From contig NZ_JACIHE010000001.1 of assembly GCF_014198245.1 (NCBI RefSeq), positions 62,001-126,000 on the forward strand: DNA of 64,000 nucleotides, written 5' to 3'. Position numbers and translations under genes: made by a program. A model generated the notes under the pieces. That model did no database searches and was not told the origin of the DNA. It worked only from the letters and a program-made list of their open reading frames with translations. The stretch's first letter is position 1. Each line of letters opens with the position of its first letter. This document shows, piece by piece, positions 19,291 to 24,000 of the stretch. This stretch comes from Bradyrhizobium sp. cir1. Its GTDB lineage: Bacteria > Pseudomonadota > Alphaproteobacteria > Rhizobiales > Xanthobacteraceae.

Positions 19291-20010
19291 ATGAAGAAGA
19301 ATTTGTTGCTTGCCGCTGTGAGCCTCGTCGCGCTCAGCGCAGCTGCACCGGCGCTGGCTGCCGACCTCGCGGCGCGTCCGTACACCAAGGCACCCGCGAT
19401 GGTCGCCACGATCTACGACTGGAGCGGCTTCTACATCGGCATCAACGGCGGCGGTGGTTCGTCGCACGCGACCTGGGACTTCGTCGGCGTTGGTCGCGAG
19501 GGTTCGCACGATGCGACCGGCGGCACGGTCGGTGGCCAGATCGGCTATCGCTGGCAGTCGGGCCAGTGGGTGTTCGGCGTGGAAGGCCAGGGCAACTGGG
19601 CCGACTTCTCCGGCGACAATCTGAGCGCGCTGTTCGCCACTCGTAATCGCACGAAGATGGACGCGTTCGGCCTGATCACCGGCCAGGTCGGTTATGCCTG
19701 GAACAACGTCCTCGTGTACGTGAAGGGCGGTGCGGCTGTGGTCAGCGACAAGTACGAGATCTATGGCCTCGGCGGCGGGCTGCTCGCGTCGACCAGCGAC
19801 ACCCGTTGGGGTGGCACGGTTGGTGCCGGCCTCGAGTACGGCTTCGCGCCGAACTGGTCGGTTGGCGTCGAGTACAACCACATCTTCCTGTCGGACAAGG
19901 ATGTCACCTTTGCCGGCTTCGCTGGCACCGAGCGCATCCGTCAGGACGTCGACATGGGCCTCGTCCGCCTGAACTACAAGTTCGGCGGCCCGATCCTCGG
20001 CCGTTACTGA
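19291..20010 (+). CDS. Outer-membrane beta-barrel protein (Omp25/OmpA-like porin family)
   Basis: 239 residues with a standard signal peptide (MKKNLLLAAVSLVALSAAAPALA, cleavage before ADLAARPY) and an eight-strand barrel pattern: YDWSGFYIGINGGGG near the N-terminus, repeated alternating aromatic strands, and a final strand VRLNYKFGGPILGRY ending near an aromatic residue. This is the abundant Omp25/RopB-type surface protein class of Rhizobiales. It acts in the outer membrane; the role is structural or surface contact rather than a known transport. The gene is single, ends with a strong terminator (20041-20070) and is likely highly expressed. Confidence 0.9.
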   Translation: MKKNLLLAAVSLVALSAAAPALAADLAARPYTKAPAMVATIYDWSGFYIGINGGGGSSHATWDFVGVGREGSHDATGGTVGGQIGYRWQSGQWVFGVEGQGNWADFSGDNLSALFATRNRTKMDAFGLITGQVGYAWNNVLVYVKGGAAVVSDKYEIYGLGGGLLASTSDTRWGGTVGAGLEYGFAPNWSVGVEYNHIFLSDKDVTFAGFAGTERIRQDVDMGLVRLNYKFGGPILGRY

Positions 20011-20040
20011 TACCGATCGCTCTTTTGAGCGGCTATCGAA

Positions 20041-20070
20041 AGCCCCGGCCATCGGCCGGGGCTTTTTTTT
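20041..20070 (+). terminator. Rho-independent terminator of the outer-membrane protein gene
   Basis: Perfect 10-bp stem AGCCCCGGCC / GGCCGGGGCT with a 3-nt loop (ATC), followed by eight T. It isolates the small LexA-box gene and dnaE from the upstream gene. Confidence 0.93.
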
Positions 20071-20151
20071 ATTGCGTGAATTCAGCGAGTTAACCATCGC
20101 GTTGCGAGATTACGAGCCAGGCTTGACTCCCGTGAACGAAATGAGAACAAT

Positions 20152-20166
20152 GTTCTTCATACGTTC
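20152..20166 (+). promoter_or_regulatory. LexA (SOS) box upstream of the small ORF next to dnaE
   Basis: GTTC-TTCATAC-GTTC, an exact match to the alphaproteobacterial LexA direct-repeat box GTTC-N7-GTTC. It ends 18 bp before the ATG at 20185, overlapping the expected transcription start. A CTTGAC (20122-20127) fits a -35 element. Confidence 0.65.
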
Positions 20167-20184
20167 TAGCAAGGGAGCGAGACC

Positions 20185-20283
20185 ATGTTCAGGATTTTCG
20201 TGGAAGAGGCGGCTGCACTGGCGTCCATCACGCTGTTCGTCGGGATGATCGCGATCTGGGCCCAGGTCATACCGCAGCTCTAG
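20185..20283 (+). CDS. 32-aa membrane protein under LexA box, SidA-like candidate
   Basis: The ORF reads M-F-R-I-F-V-E-E-A-A-A-L-A-S-I-T-L-F-V-G and continues MIAIWAQVIPQL: a short amphipathic start then one hydrophobic helix with a terminal Trp. A GGGAG ribosome-binding site lies about 8 nt before the ATG. A perfect LexA box sits directly upstream and dnaE follows. Caulobacter SidA is a 29-residue, LexA-controlled inner-membrane peptide that blocks division by binding FtsW. Size, topology and control fit, so an SOS division inhibitor is a reasonable hypothesis; I have not aligned the sequences. Alternatives are a TisB-like membrane toxin or an unrelated peptide. Confidence 0.65.
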   Translation: MFRIFVEEAAALASITLFVGMIAIWAQVIPQL

Positions 20284-20496
20284 ACCTGCGGTTTTGTAAA
20301 CCGGTGCTGCTCTTCACCGGTGCCCCCTTGGGGAAAAGCGGGACGACGCGGCGAAGCGGCCGCTCCGGCGTGGACTCTGGCGGCGCGAGACCCCACCATT
20401 GTGAAGCGAGTCGGCAAGAGAGGCGGATGGCGGGTGCATGATCCCCTCGGAGCCGGCGACCGCTCCATCTCATCTGCAAGAGGCCGTCACGCGACC

Positions 20497-23400
20497 ATGC
20501 CGAGCGCCGGATTTGTCCACCTTCACGTTCACTCGGCCTATTCGCTGCTCAAGGGCTCGATCAAGATCGCCAAGCTCGCCGAGCTTGCAAAGAAAGATCA
20601 TCAGCCGGCCCTTGCGCTGACCGACACCGACAATCTGTTCGGGGCGCTGGAGTTCTCCGACAAGATGGCGGGCTCCGGGATCCAGCCGATCGTCGGCTGC
20701 GAGCTCGCGATCGACTTCGCAGACCAGGATCCCAATGCACGCAACTCCATTGGCCCGTCGCGCGTCGTTCTGCTGGCGGCGCAGGAGCGCGGTTATCGCA
20801 GTCTGATGCGGCTCAATTCGCGGGCGTTCCTGGAAACGCCCGACAGCCACGCCCCGTTCATCAAGTTCGATTGGCTCGAAGGCGAGACCGAGGGTCTGAT
20901 CGCGCTCACGGGCGGCCCCGACGGGCCGATCTCGCTGGCGCTTGCCGGCGGCCACGCCGATCTCGCGGCCGCGCGCTGCGAACGTCTGGCCGGCCTGTTC
21001 GGCGATCGGCTCTATATCGAATTGCAGCGCCACAACACCGACAAGGAACGGCGCGTCGAAAGCGGCTTGATCGACATTGCCTATGCGAAGGGCCTGCCGC
21101 TGGTTGCGACCAACGAGCCGTATTTCGCGTCGACCGACGACTACGAAGCGCATGACGCGCTGCTGTGCATCGCCGGCGGCCGGCTGATCGCCGAGACCGA
21201 TCGCGTGCAGCTCACGCCCGATCATCGCTTCAAGACCCGCGCCGAGATGGCGGTGCTGTTCGCCGACATTCCGGAGGCGCTGGCCTCCACGGTCGAGATC
21301 GCCGAGCGCTGCTCGTTTCGTCCGATGACGCGCAAGCCGATCCTGCCGTTCTTCACCGTCGGCGCCGCGGCGAGCTCGGACGCCGCCGCGGTCGAGGCGG
21401 CCGAACTGAAGCGGCAGGCGGAGGAGGGGCTCGCCAACCGCCTGCGCGTGCACGGCCTGTCGCAAGGCACGACGGAAGAGGCCTACAACAAGCGTCTGGC
21501 GTTCGAGCTCGACGTCATCATGCGCATGAAGTACGCGGGCTACTTCCTGATCGTCTCCGACTTCATCAAATGGGCGAAGTCGCAAGGGATTCCGGTCGGG
21601 CCGGGCCGCGGCTCCGGCGCAGGCTCGCTGGTCGCCTGGGCGCTGACCATCACCGACCTCGATCCGATCAAGTTCGGCCTGCTGTTCGAGCGCTTCCTCA
21701 ATCCCGAACGCGTCTCGATGCCGGACTTCGACATCGACTTCTGCCAGGACCGCCGCGGCGAGGTGATCCAGTACGTCCAGCAGCGCTACGGCCGCGACCA
21801 GGTCGCCCAGATCATCACCTTCGGTACGCTGCAGGCGCGCGGTGTGCTGCGCGACGTCGGCCGCGTGCTGCAGATGCCCTATGGCCAGGTCGACAAGCTC
21901 ACGAAGCTCGTGCCGCAGAATCCGGCGGCGCCGGTGACGCTGGCTGCCGCGATCGAGAGCGAGCCGAAGCTCCAGGCGTTCCGCGACGAGGACCCGGTGG
22001 TGGCGCGCGCCTTCGACATCGCGCAGCGCCTCGAAGGCCTGACCCGCCACGCCTCGACCCACGCGGCCGGCATCGTGATCGGCGATCGGCCTTTGAGCGA
22101 ACTGGTGCCGATGTACCGCGATCCGAAGTCGGATATGCCGGTGACCCAGTTCAACATGAAATGGGTCGAGCCGGCGGGCCTCGTGAAGTTCGACTTCCTC
22201 GGTCTGAAGACGCTGACCGTGCTCGATGTCGCCTGCAAGCTGCTCAAGCCGCGCGACATCCACATCAATCTCGCCACGCTGCCGATCGACGATGCCGAGA
22301 GCTACCAGATGCTGGCGCGCGGCGAGGTGGTCGGCGTGTTCCAGGTTGAAAGCCAGGGCATGCGGCGGGCGCTGGTCGACATGCGCCCGGACCGTTTCGA
22401 GGACATCATCGCGCTGGTCGCGCTCTATCGCCCGGGCCCGATGGCGAACATCCCGACCTATTGCGCGCGCAAGCACGGCGACGAGGAGCCGGAATATCTG
22501 CATCCCGTGCTGGAGCCGATCCTGAAGGAAACCTTCGGCGTCATCATCTACCAGGAACAGGTGATGCAGATCGCGCAGGTGATGTCGGGCTATTCGCTCG
22601 GCGACGCCGACCTCTTGCGCCGCGCCATGGGCAAGAAGATCCGCGCCGAGATGGACAAGCAGCGCGACATCTTCGTCGCCGGCGCGGTCAAAAACGGCGT
22701 GCCGAAGGGGCAGGCCGAGACCATCTTCGAGCTGCTCGCCAAGTTCGCCGACTACGGCTTCAACAAGAGCCACGCGGCGGCCTATGCGCTGGTGTCCTAC
22801 CACACCGCCTACATGAAGGCGCATTATCCGGTGGAGTTCATCGCAGCGTCCATGACGCTCGATCTCAACAACACCGACAAGCTCTCCGAATTCCGCTCCG
22901 AGGCGCAGCGCCTCGGCATCAAGGTCGAGCCGCCGAACATCAACCGCTCCGGCGCGACCTTCGAGGTCGGCGAGAAGACGATCTACTATGCGCTCGCAGC
23001 GCTGAAGGGCGTCGGCATCCAGGCGATCGAGCAGATCATCGAGGAGCGCACGAAGAACGGTCTTTTCACCTCGCTCGCCGACTTCGCCGCGCGGGTCAAT
23101 CCGCGCGCGATCAACAAGCGCATCATCGAAAGTCTGGCCGCCGCCGGCGCCTTCGATACGCTGGAGCCGAACCGGGCGCGGGTCTTCGCCGGTGCGGACG
23201 CGATCCTCGCCGCTTGCCAGCGCGCGCACGAAGCCGCGACCATCGGCCAGAACGACATGTTCGGAAGCTCGGCCGACGCGCCGACCATCATGCTGCCGCA
23301 GATCGAGGCGTGGCTGCCGGCCGAGCGGCTGCGCCGCGAATACGACGCGATCGGCTTCTTCCTGTCGGGACATCCGCTCGATGATTACGCCACTGTGCTG

Positions 23401-24000
23401 AAGCGGCTGCGCGTGCAGAGCTGGGCCGAGTTCTCGCGCGCGGTGAAGACCGGCGCCACCGCCGGCAAGGTCGCGGCGACCGTTGTGTCGCGCATGGAGC
23501 GGCGCACCAAGACCGGCAACAAGATGGGCATCATGGGCCTGTCGGACCCGACCGGGCATTTCGAGGCGGTGCTGTTCTCCGAAGGCCTCGCGCAATATCG
23601 CGACGTGCTGGAGCCGGGCGCCGCGGTGCTGCTCCAGCTCGGTGCCGAGCTCCAGGGCGAGGACGTGCGCGCGCGCGTGCTGCATGCCGAGCCGCTCGAC
23701 GACGCTGCGGCCAAGACGCAGAAGGGCCTGCGCATCTTCCTGCGCGACACCAAGCCGCTCGACTCGATCGCCAAGCGTCTCGCCGGACCCGAGATCGCGG
23801 CCTCGAACGGCGCCGCGCCGAAGGTCGGCAGTCCCGGCATCGCGCCGCGCTCCAATGGCGACGGCGAGGTCTCGCTGGTGTTGATGCTCGACCTCGAGAC
23901 CGAGGTGGAGATGAAGCTGCCCGGCCGGTTCAAGGTCTCGCCGCAGATCGCCGGCGCGATCAAGGCGGTCGCGGGCGTGGTGGACGTGCAGCAGCTGTAG
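20497..24000 (+). CDS. dnaE: DNA polymerase III subunit alpha
   Basis: Catalytic subunit of the replicative polymerase, 1167 residues, normal for DnaE1. N-terminal PHP domain starts FVHLHVHSAYSLLKGSIK; the polymerase core includes GPGRGSGAGSLVAWAL and the metal-binding PDFDIDF (palm). Further on are HASTHAAGIVIGD, VALYRPGPM, the beta-clamp-binding region (QNDMFG) and the OB-fold. The frame is open from 20320, but the ATG at 20497 starts the family-typical MPSAGFVHLHVHSAYS. It lies 213 bp after the LexA-box small ORF; a stem (CCGGTG...CACCGG, 20301-20320) lacks a T run, so read-through from the SOS promoter into dnaE is possible. Confidence 0.96.
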   Translation: MPSAGFVHLHVHSAYSLLKGSIKIAKLAELAKKDHQPALALTDTDNLFGALEFSDKMAGSGIQPIVGCELAIDFADQDPNARNSIGPSRVVLLAAQERGYRSLMRLNSRAFLETPDSHAPFIKFDWLEGETEGLIALTGGPDGPISLALAGGHADLAAARCERLAGLFGDRLYIELQRHNTDKERRVESGLIDIAYAKGLPLVATNEPYFASTDDYEAHDALLCIAGGRLIAETDRVQLTPDHRFKTRAEMAVLFADIPEALASTVEIAERCSFRPMTRKPILPFFTVGAAASSDAAAVEAAELKRQAEEGLANRLRVHGLSQGTTEEAYNKRLAFELDVIMRMKYAGYFLIVSDFIKWAKSQGIPVGPGRGSGAGSLVAWALTITDLDPIKFGLLFERFLNPERVSMPDFDIDFCQDRRGEVIQYVQQRYGRDQVAQIITFGTLQARGVLRDVGRVLQMPYGQVDKLTKLVPQNPAAPVTLAAAIESEPKLQAFRDEDPVVARAFDIAQRLEGLTRHASTHAAGIVIGDRPLSELVPMYRDPKSDMPVTQFNMKWVEPAGLVKFDFLGLKTLTVLDVACKLLKPRDIHINLATLPIDDAESYQMLARGEVVGVFQVESQGMRRALVDMRPDRFEDIIALVALYRPGPMANIPTYCARKHGDEEPEYLHPVLEPILKETFGVIIYQEQVMQIAQVMSGYSLGDADLLRRAMGKKIRAEMDKQRDIFVAGAVKNGVPKGQAETIFELLAKFADYGFNKSHAAAYALVSYHTAYMKAHYPVEFIAASMTLDLNNTDKLSEFRSEAQRLGIKVEPPNINRSGATFEVGEKTIYYALAALKGVGIQAIEQIIEERTKNGLFTSLADFAARVNPRAINKRIIESLAAAGAFDTLEPNRARVFAGADAILAACQRAHEAATIGQNDMFGSSADAPTIMLPQIEAWLPAERLRREYDAIGFFLSGHPLDDYATVLKRLRVQSWAEFSRAVKTGATAGKVAATVVSRMERRTKTGNKMGIMGLSDPTGHFEAVLFSEGLAQYRDVLEPGAAVLLQLGAELQGEDVRARVLHAEPLDDAAAKTQKGLRIFLRDTKPLDSIAKRLAGPEIAASNGAAPKVGSPGIAPRSNGDGEVSLVLMLDLETEVEMKLPGRFKVSPQIAGAIKAVAGVVDVQQL

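Follow-up and report, generated by a model that had tools for sequence, protein, structure and literature searches.

SulA, an SOS-induced inhibitor of cell division, is soluble, and YneA of Bacillus, SosA of Staphylococcus and ChiZ of Mycobacterium, which are SOS- or damage-induced small membrane division inhibitors, are larger than the peptide described here and have different LexA operators. SulA differs further in that it inhibits FtsZ polymerisation, whereas DidA of Caulobacter, a damage-induced small membrane division inhibitor, has 71 residues, is SOS-independent and acts on FtsN (PMC4211646, in its available part). Others have predicted that YneA, SosA and ChiZ contact FtsW (PMC13396833, excerpted text). 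The closest described system is SidA of Caulobacter crescentus/vibrioides, a LexA-regulated division inhibitor; according to the same available part of PMC4211646 it has 29 residues, lies in the inner membrane and interacts with FtsW. In the portions of the literature that our search could reach, we found neither a SidA relative outside Caulobacter nor the present peptide, although the original SidA study may discuss homologues, and in those portions we found no account of the means by which Hyphomicrobiales stop dividing when their DNA is damaged. Here we describe an unannotated gene with an SOS box and a lineage-specific promoter in a Bradyrhizobium genome which, judged by its sequence, is probably a distant orthologue of sidA.

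Results

A conserved peptide gene upstream of dnaE

The window, that is, the whole 64-kb stretch of DNA analysed, contains the following features around the peptide gene:

19291-20010, upstream of the peptide locus: outer-membrane beta-barrel gene (PF13505)
20038-20066, + strand: intrinsic-terminator-like hairpin between the beta-barrel gene and the peptide locus
20090-20097, + strand: TTAACCAT, identical to the published CtrA half-site
20123-20129, + strand: TTGACTC, containing the -35-like hexamer and a GANTC site (20125-20129)
20134-20148, - strand: first LexA box GTTCTCATTTCGTTC, exact, 3 nt from the box at 20152-20166 and conserved with this partner
20146-20151, + strand: -10-like hexamer AACAAT, overlapping the end of the first LexA box plus the 3 nt that separate the two
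20152-20166, + strand: second LexA box GTTCTTCATACGTTC, exact, 18 nt before ATG 20185
20171-20177, + strand: ribosome-binding site AAGGGAG, 7 nt 5' of ATG 20185
20185-20283, + strand: gene for a SidA-like 32-residue single-helix membrane peptide, currently unannotated (evidence: conservation, pN/pS, similarity to Caulobacteraceae 29-residue ORFs)
20284-20496, + strand: leader of 213 nt from the peptide gene to dnaE, with GANTC sites at 20373-20377 and 20408-20412
20497-24000, + strand: dnaE, replicative DNA polymerase III alpha subunit (NF004226 equivalog; PF07733, PF17657)

A first-pass annotation of this DNA had proposed a 32-codon ORF with a good ribosome-binding site beside dnaE, preceded at 18 bp by a GTTC-N7-GTTC LexA box, and all of these elements are present as described. 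It had overlooked a second exact box on the opposite strand. Its strong terminator isolating the gene from upstream proved correct in so far as the hairpin has a 13-pair stem followed by a T run; with one such hairpin found and 2.3 expected by shuffling, the structure is statistically not unusual. The likely start codon of dnaE, judged by how its N terminus matches those of other dnaE genes, is ATG 20497, which lies 213 nt past the stop codon of the peptide gene.

ORF 20185-20283 is a real gene, and its product is MFRIFVEEAAALASITLFVGMIAIWAQVIPQL (32 aa). The peptide was found at E<=1e-10 in 145 of the 146 genomes sampled from the genus, the sole exception being an 81%-complete assembly (E 0.044). 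Within the family, a limit of E<=1 takes in 192 of 248 genomes, from 37 of 47 genera. We compared 78 loci, 74 of them distinct after removal of four duplicates, and the length of the peptide is 32-33 residues in every one (78/78). The ratio pN/pS, calculated for 67 distinct coding sequences relative to the window's own gene, is 0.14 in frame, whereas the two remaining forward frames give 1.9 and 4.9; the earlier claim that the ORF is coding thus holds. The 32-33-residue peptides have a single hydrophobic core, in which the helix is assigned from hydropathy only. Neither Pfam nor NCBIfam has a model that matches the peptide, and homologues were not found at E<=1 in the phage collection searched.

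Similarity to the Caulobacteraceae peptides

The first annotator had placed sidA next to dnaE in Caulobacter as well. To locate Caulobacteraceae genomes we used a MipZ chain from the Protein Data Bank, which we take to be that of Caulobacter. This chain matched two genomes at 100%, compared with 45-49% in 19 genomes screened earlier, and in the former a LexA box and a 29-residue ORF lie upstream of dnaE. A scan with DnaE from one of them gave 28 named loci, of which two belong to unrelated bacteria and two are incomplete. The ORF is present in all of the remaining 24 (Caulobacter, Phenylobacterium and Caulobacteraceae/Caulobacterales assemblies), with 29 residues throughout but 30 in L334, and an exact box accompanies it in 16 of the 24. 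Among these 16 are two loci of C. vibrioides itself, L317 and L323, where the 29-residue ORF stands behind the exact LexA box directly upstream of dnaE, which bears out that placement. Since length, box and place agree, we infer that the Caulobacter ORF is sidA. A motif search recovered the ORF in 51 of 57 Caulobacteraceae loci, which is not an unbiased rate because the motif was derived from the same family; 45 of these ORFs have exactly 29 residues and 34 of the 51 have an exact box within 200 nt. Six loci were missed by the motif: L313 and L314 carry a 29-residue ORF behind a box all the same, L293 is missed yet scores 48.5 bits, no ORF was seen in L315, and the sequence of L322 and L340 is incomplete.

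Aligned with the SidA-type ORF, the 32-residue product is 31% identical to its 29-residue counterpart, and the two share the motif (E/D)-x-x-A-L-x-S-x3-F-x2-M. An alignment of 13 rows shows M1 and F18 unchanged throughout and A11, L12 and M21 nearly so; W25 is invariant in the 20 peptides of the profile used for the wider searches, but Caulobacteraceae do not share it. With a profile built from 42 Caulobacteraceae peptides the window peptide obtains 16.6 bits (z 10), and none of 3000 shuffles that preserve composition reaches this score. For three further members of the window family the values were 15.8 and 11.7 bits (0/3000 each) and, for the divergent L077, 5.3 bits (47/3000). Against the same profile the best natural hydrophobic 32-mer outside dnaE-linked ORFs reached 8.9 bits (4608 segments, 3977 scored). 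Comparison of profiles with hhalign linked the window family to the Caulobacteraceae peptides with probability 78 and E 1.8e-5, and the other Rhizobiales peptides to them with probability 96 and E 3.5e-9.

The reverse test is weak. The Xanthobacteraceae profile gave 8.5 bits with the C. vibrioides-type ORF (28/3000 shuffles) and 3.7 bits with the Caulobacteraceae ORF L266 (144/3000). Of 4301 natural segments scored, 158 reach 8.5 bits, and against them the reverse direction is not significant; this control is biased upward, since 28 of its loci had been fetched as chance matches of a closely similar profile. Neither the Xanthobacteraceae profile nor that of the other Rhizobiales separates the family from unrelated natural hydrophobic segments, and therefore only the Caulobacteraceae profile serves as evidence when set against the natural-segment control. 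Homology to SidA rests jointly on the profile score, the intermediates, the position, the operator and the length.

Distribution in the order and the class

For searches of the order and class we used the profile with 20 peptide rows. At order level and E<=0.1, matches were obtained in 57 of 297 genomes, of which some are chance matches. Among 41 of the loci matched in this search, dnaE was present in 37, and a hydrophobic ORF of 27-36 residues precedes it in all 37. An exact box was found in 31 of these 37 loci, a count that does not cover L116. In one family (f215), with six loci encoding 27 residues, the exact box is absent from five, which show a degenerate GAAC-N7-ATAC instead, and in the sixth it lies 153 nt away.

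Across the class the profile matched 120 of 385 genomes at E<=1, with nothing better than E 0.0058 outside the genus. We examined 28 of the class-search loci (L079-L106) as possible relatives and rejected them, as none has dnaE beside it. Because the profile fails at greater distances, the survey was re-anchored on dnaE, which was found in 278 of 289 class genomes. Upstream regions were examined at 108 loci and 106 were usable, L166 and L270 being dropped for too little upstream sequence; these 106 are mostly the loci nearest in dnaE and were not sampled at random from the 278 genomes. Of the 106, 32 have an exact box and 24 the complete arrangement, in which a box, a ribosome-binding-like site and a hydrophobic ORF 24-50 codons long precede dnaE. 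Forty dinucleotide-shuffled sets contained on average 1.2 boxes (maximum 4), and the complete arrangement occurred in none of them (0/40). The 24 complete loci are spread over 12 family codes. Among 20 such distant ORFs scored, only four surpassed every one of 1000 shuffles when the Caulobacteraceae profile was used, and eight with that of the other Rhizobiales, so that for the remainder only the arrangement is shown. L266, with two boxes and a 29-residue ORF, was scored as "box only" since its helix misses the hydropathy cut-off.

The putative LexA operator

The two boxes form an inverted pair, GAAC-N7-GAAC-N3-GTTC-N7-GTTC, which spans the -10 element of a sigma-70-like promoter (TTGACT-17-AACAAT, 9/12 match). 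The whole double box is kept in 70 of the 74 distinct loci and the -35 sequence TTGAC in 73, although such counts are not independent events because the loci share descent. Conservation of ORF and box in close relatives, on which the first reading depended, is thus seen for both. The numbers of boxes are near chance: the window contains four exact boxes compared with 1.54 expected (10 of 100 shuffles reach four), and the genome contains 142, fewer than the 227 matches of a reversed control pattern. The evidence for LexA boxes therefore rests on their conservation and not on their number. Twenty of the 142 were inspected, chosen mostly for AT-rich spacers, and three of these precede recA, ssb and an imuA-like gene, the product of the last scoring below the NCBIfam cut-off. 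These three positions identify GTTC-N7-GTTC as the SOS box of this genome. In Caulobacter, about 97% of SOS promoters have one box (PMC12700426, excerpted text), in contrast to the inverted double box found here. The doubling of the operator suggests that repression is tight, which a division inhibitor would require.

The promoter and the dnaE leader

Unlike sidA, the peptide gene has a CtrA half-site and a GANTC site in its promoter. The half-site is published as TTAACCAT with the core TTAACCA (available parts of PMC3692519 and PMC11527210). TTAACCA occurs within 150 nt upstream in 58 of the 74 distinct loci, compared with one occurrence in the whole 64-kb window and two in 198 kb of the remaining sequence of those loci. 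In the 54 loci with both elements (20 of the 74 lack one and were dropped), its distance to the -35 element is 26-28 nt in 34 loci, 36-38 nt in 17 and 47 nt in three, values that lie one helical turn apart. In 62 of these 74 loci, which are of Xanthobacteraceae type, the -35 element reads TTGANTC. The common ancestry of the loci raises the counts of both the CtrA half-site and GANTC. Few loci of other groups have TTAACC within 200 nt (2 of 27 from other Rhizobiales, 2 of 20 from elsewhere in the class and 1 of 51 from Caulobacteraceae), and GANTC within 120 nt, unremarkable there, was found in 9 of 27, 5 of 20 and 10 of 51 loci of these groups, for which no expectation was computed. We hypothesise from these patterns that CtrA or CcrM may regulate the peptide promoter.

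The leader of 213 nt compares with about 35 nt in Caulobacter. In 62 of the 74 loci (in the other 12 the dnaE start was not recognised) it contains on average 1.92 GANTC sites per spacer, compared with 0.62 in mononucleotide shuffles. Words that recur in related leaders are GGGGA(A/T)AA (53/62 spacers), CACCAT (56/62) and GAGTCGG (57/62). The two GANTC sites in the window's leader together with recurring words suggest a separate dnaE promoter, putatively under cell-cycle control. Read-through from the peptide gene into dnaE is possible as well.

Discussion

The first-pass annotation regarded the ORF as the counterpart of SidA, and position, LexA boxes, size and profile similarity to the 29-residue Caulobacteraceae ORFs support this reading. 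Window peptide and SidA have in common a LexA box, one hydrophobic helix, some 30 residues and, if the Caulobacter ORF is sidA, the place directly upstream of dnaE. We consider it quite likely that the ORF is a distant sidA orthologue whose product would, most likely, arrest division via FtsW after DNA damage. Two LexA dimers on the inverted boxes would keep the promoter shut. After DNA damage, RecA would trigger the self-cleavage of LexA and the 32-residue peptide would be made, which may insert into the inner membrane as one helix with its short charged N-terminus inside. By analogy with SidA, it could then block the activity of the FtsW septal-wall synthase complex up to the recovery of LexA.

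Changes of FtsW at A31, F145 and A246 relieve the action of SidA in Caulobacter, according to the available part of PMC4211646, and this numbering fits the FtsW of the Caulobacter genome that we used, which, like the 100% match of MipZ, supports the identity of that genome. The FtsW of the Bradyrhizobium genome carries A, F and A at these positions. Among eight aligned FtsW sequences, the residues corresponding to F145 and A246 are the same in all eight and A31 in seven. Because they are conserved in most genomes compared, these residues indicate compatibility and are not specific evidence. Genes of the FtsW/RodA family number one each in five Hyphomicrobiales genomes tested (G000, G980, G963, G932 and G880), and two above the cut-off in each of five other genomes.

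TisB is an SOS membrane toxin, and a peptide of the TisB/DinQ kind would depolarise the membrane and slow growth with no action on FtsW. The size, the single hydrophobic helix and the SOS control of the window peptide would fit such a toxin, and DinQ of E. coli is described as an SOS single-helix toxic peptide (PMC3567139, excerpted text). However, the peptide gene adjoins dnaE in the loci compared, it is present in 145 of 146 genus genomes, and its product is similar to the 29-residue family of Caulobacteraceae, which makes a toxin improbable.

Slightly lower still do we rate a translated leader peptide that solely tunes the expression of dnaE, with LexA mainly regulating the latter. dnaE lies directly downstream and is listed as SOS-regulated in Caulobacter (PMC3323433, available part), both of which would fit such a leader peptide; against it stand selection at the amino-acid level and a membrane-helix motif that is kept between families while the leader varies between 159 and 295 nt (62 spacers measured). 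In addition, the leader shows no exceptional RNA fold over its first 62 nt (z -1.07). That the ORF is incidental and the LexA boxes belong simply to dnaE, which is only 213 nt away and before which single boxes might arise by chance, is hardly credible in view of an in-frame pN/pS of 0.14, where the other forward frames give 1.9 and 4.9, and of a length of 32-33 residues in 78 of 78 loci.

As a distant SidA orthologue, the peptide may be part of a larger picture, to which we give somewhat less than even credence: SidA could be an ancient dnaE-linked division checkpoint of much of the Alphaproteobacteria, the LexA box of which has been assigned to dnaE. The promoter in the Bradyrhizobium lineage would join SOS through the double LexA operator, CtrA through TTAACCAT at helically phased distances and CcrM methylation through the GANTC in the -35 element, and would thereby gate the post-damage arrest by cell-cycle state. 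The reported LexA control of dnaE in Caulobacter would then invite a fresh reading. A conserved, unannotated and genetically tractable peptide with a predicted target provides Hyphomicrobiales with a candidate for the arrest of division upon damage that can be tested at once, and the diverged inhibitors could serve as a natural alignment for mapping the contact surface on FtsW.

Duplication of the operator recurs at the SidA-like peptide gene. In seven of the eight loci L111-L118, a second box lies 31 nt from the first in opposite orientation, and three Caulobacteraceae loci (L266, L286 and L288) have two boxes in tandem, 18 nt apart. Elsewhere in the Bradyrhizobium genome, an exact LexA box is found 35 nt before an ORF of 260 aa (L344, G000:C1:238806-241406). 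Its product has RecF/RecN/ABC-type ATPase matches, weak and below the cut-offs, and the ORF may represent a further SOS candidate.
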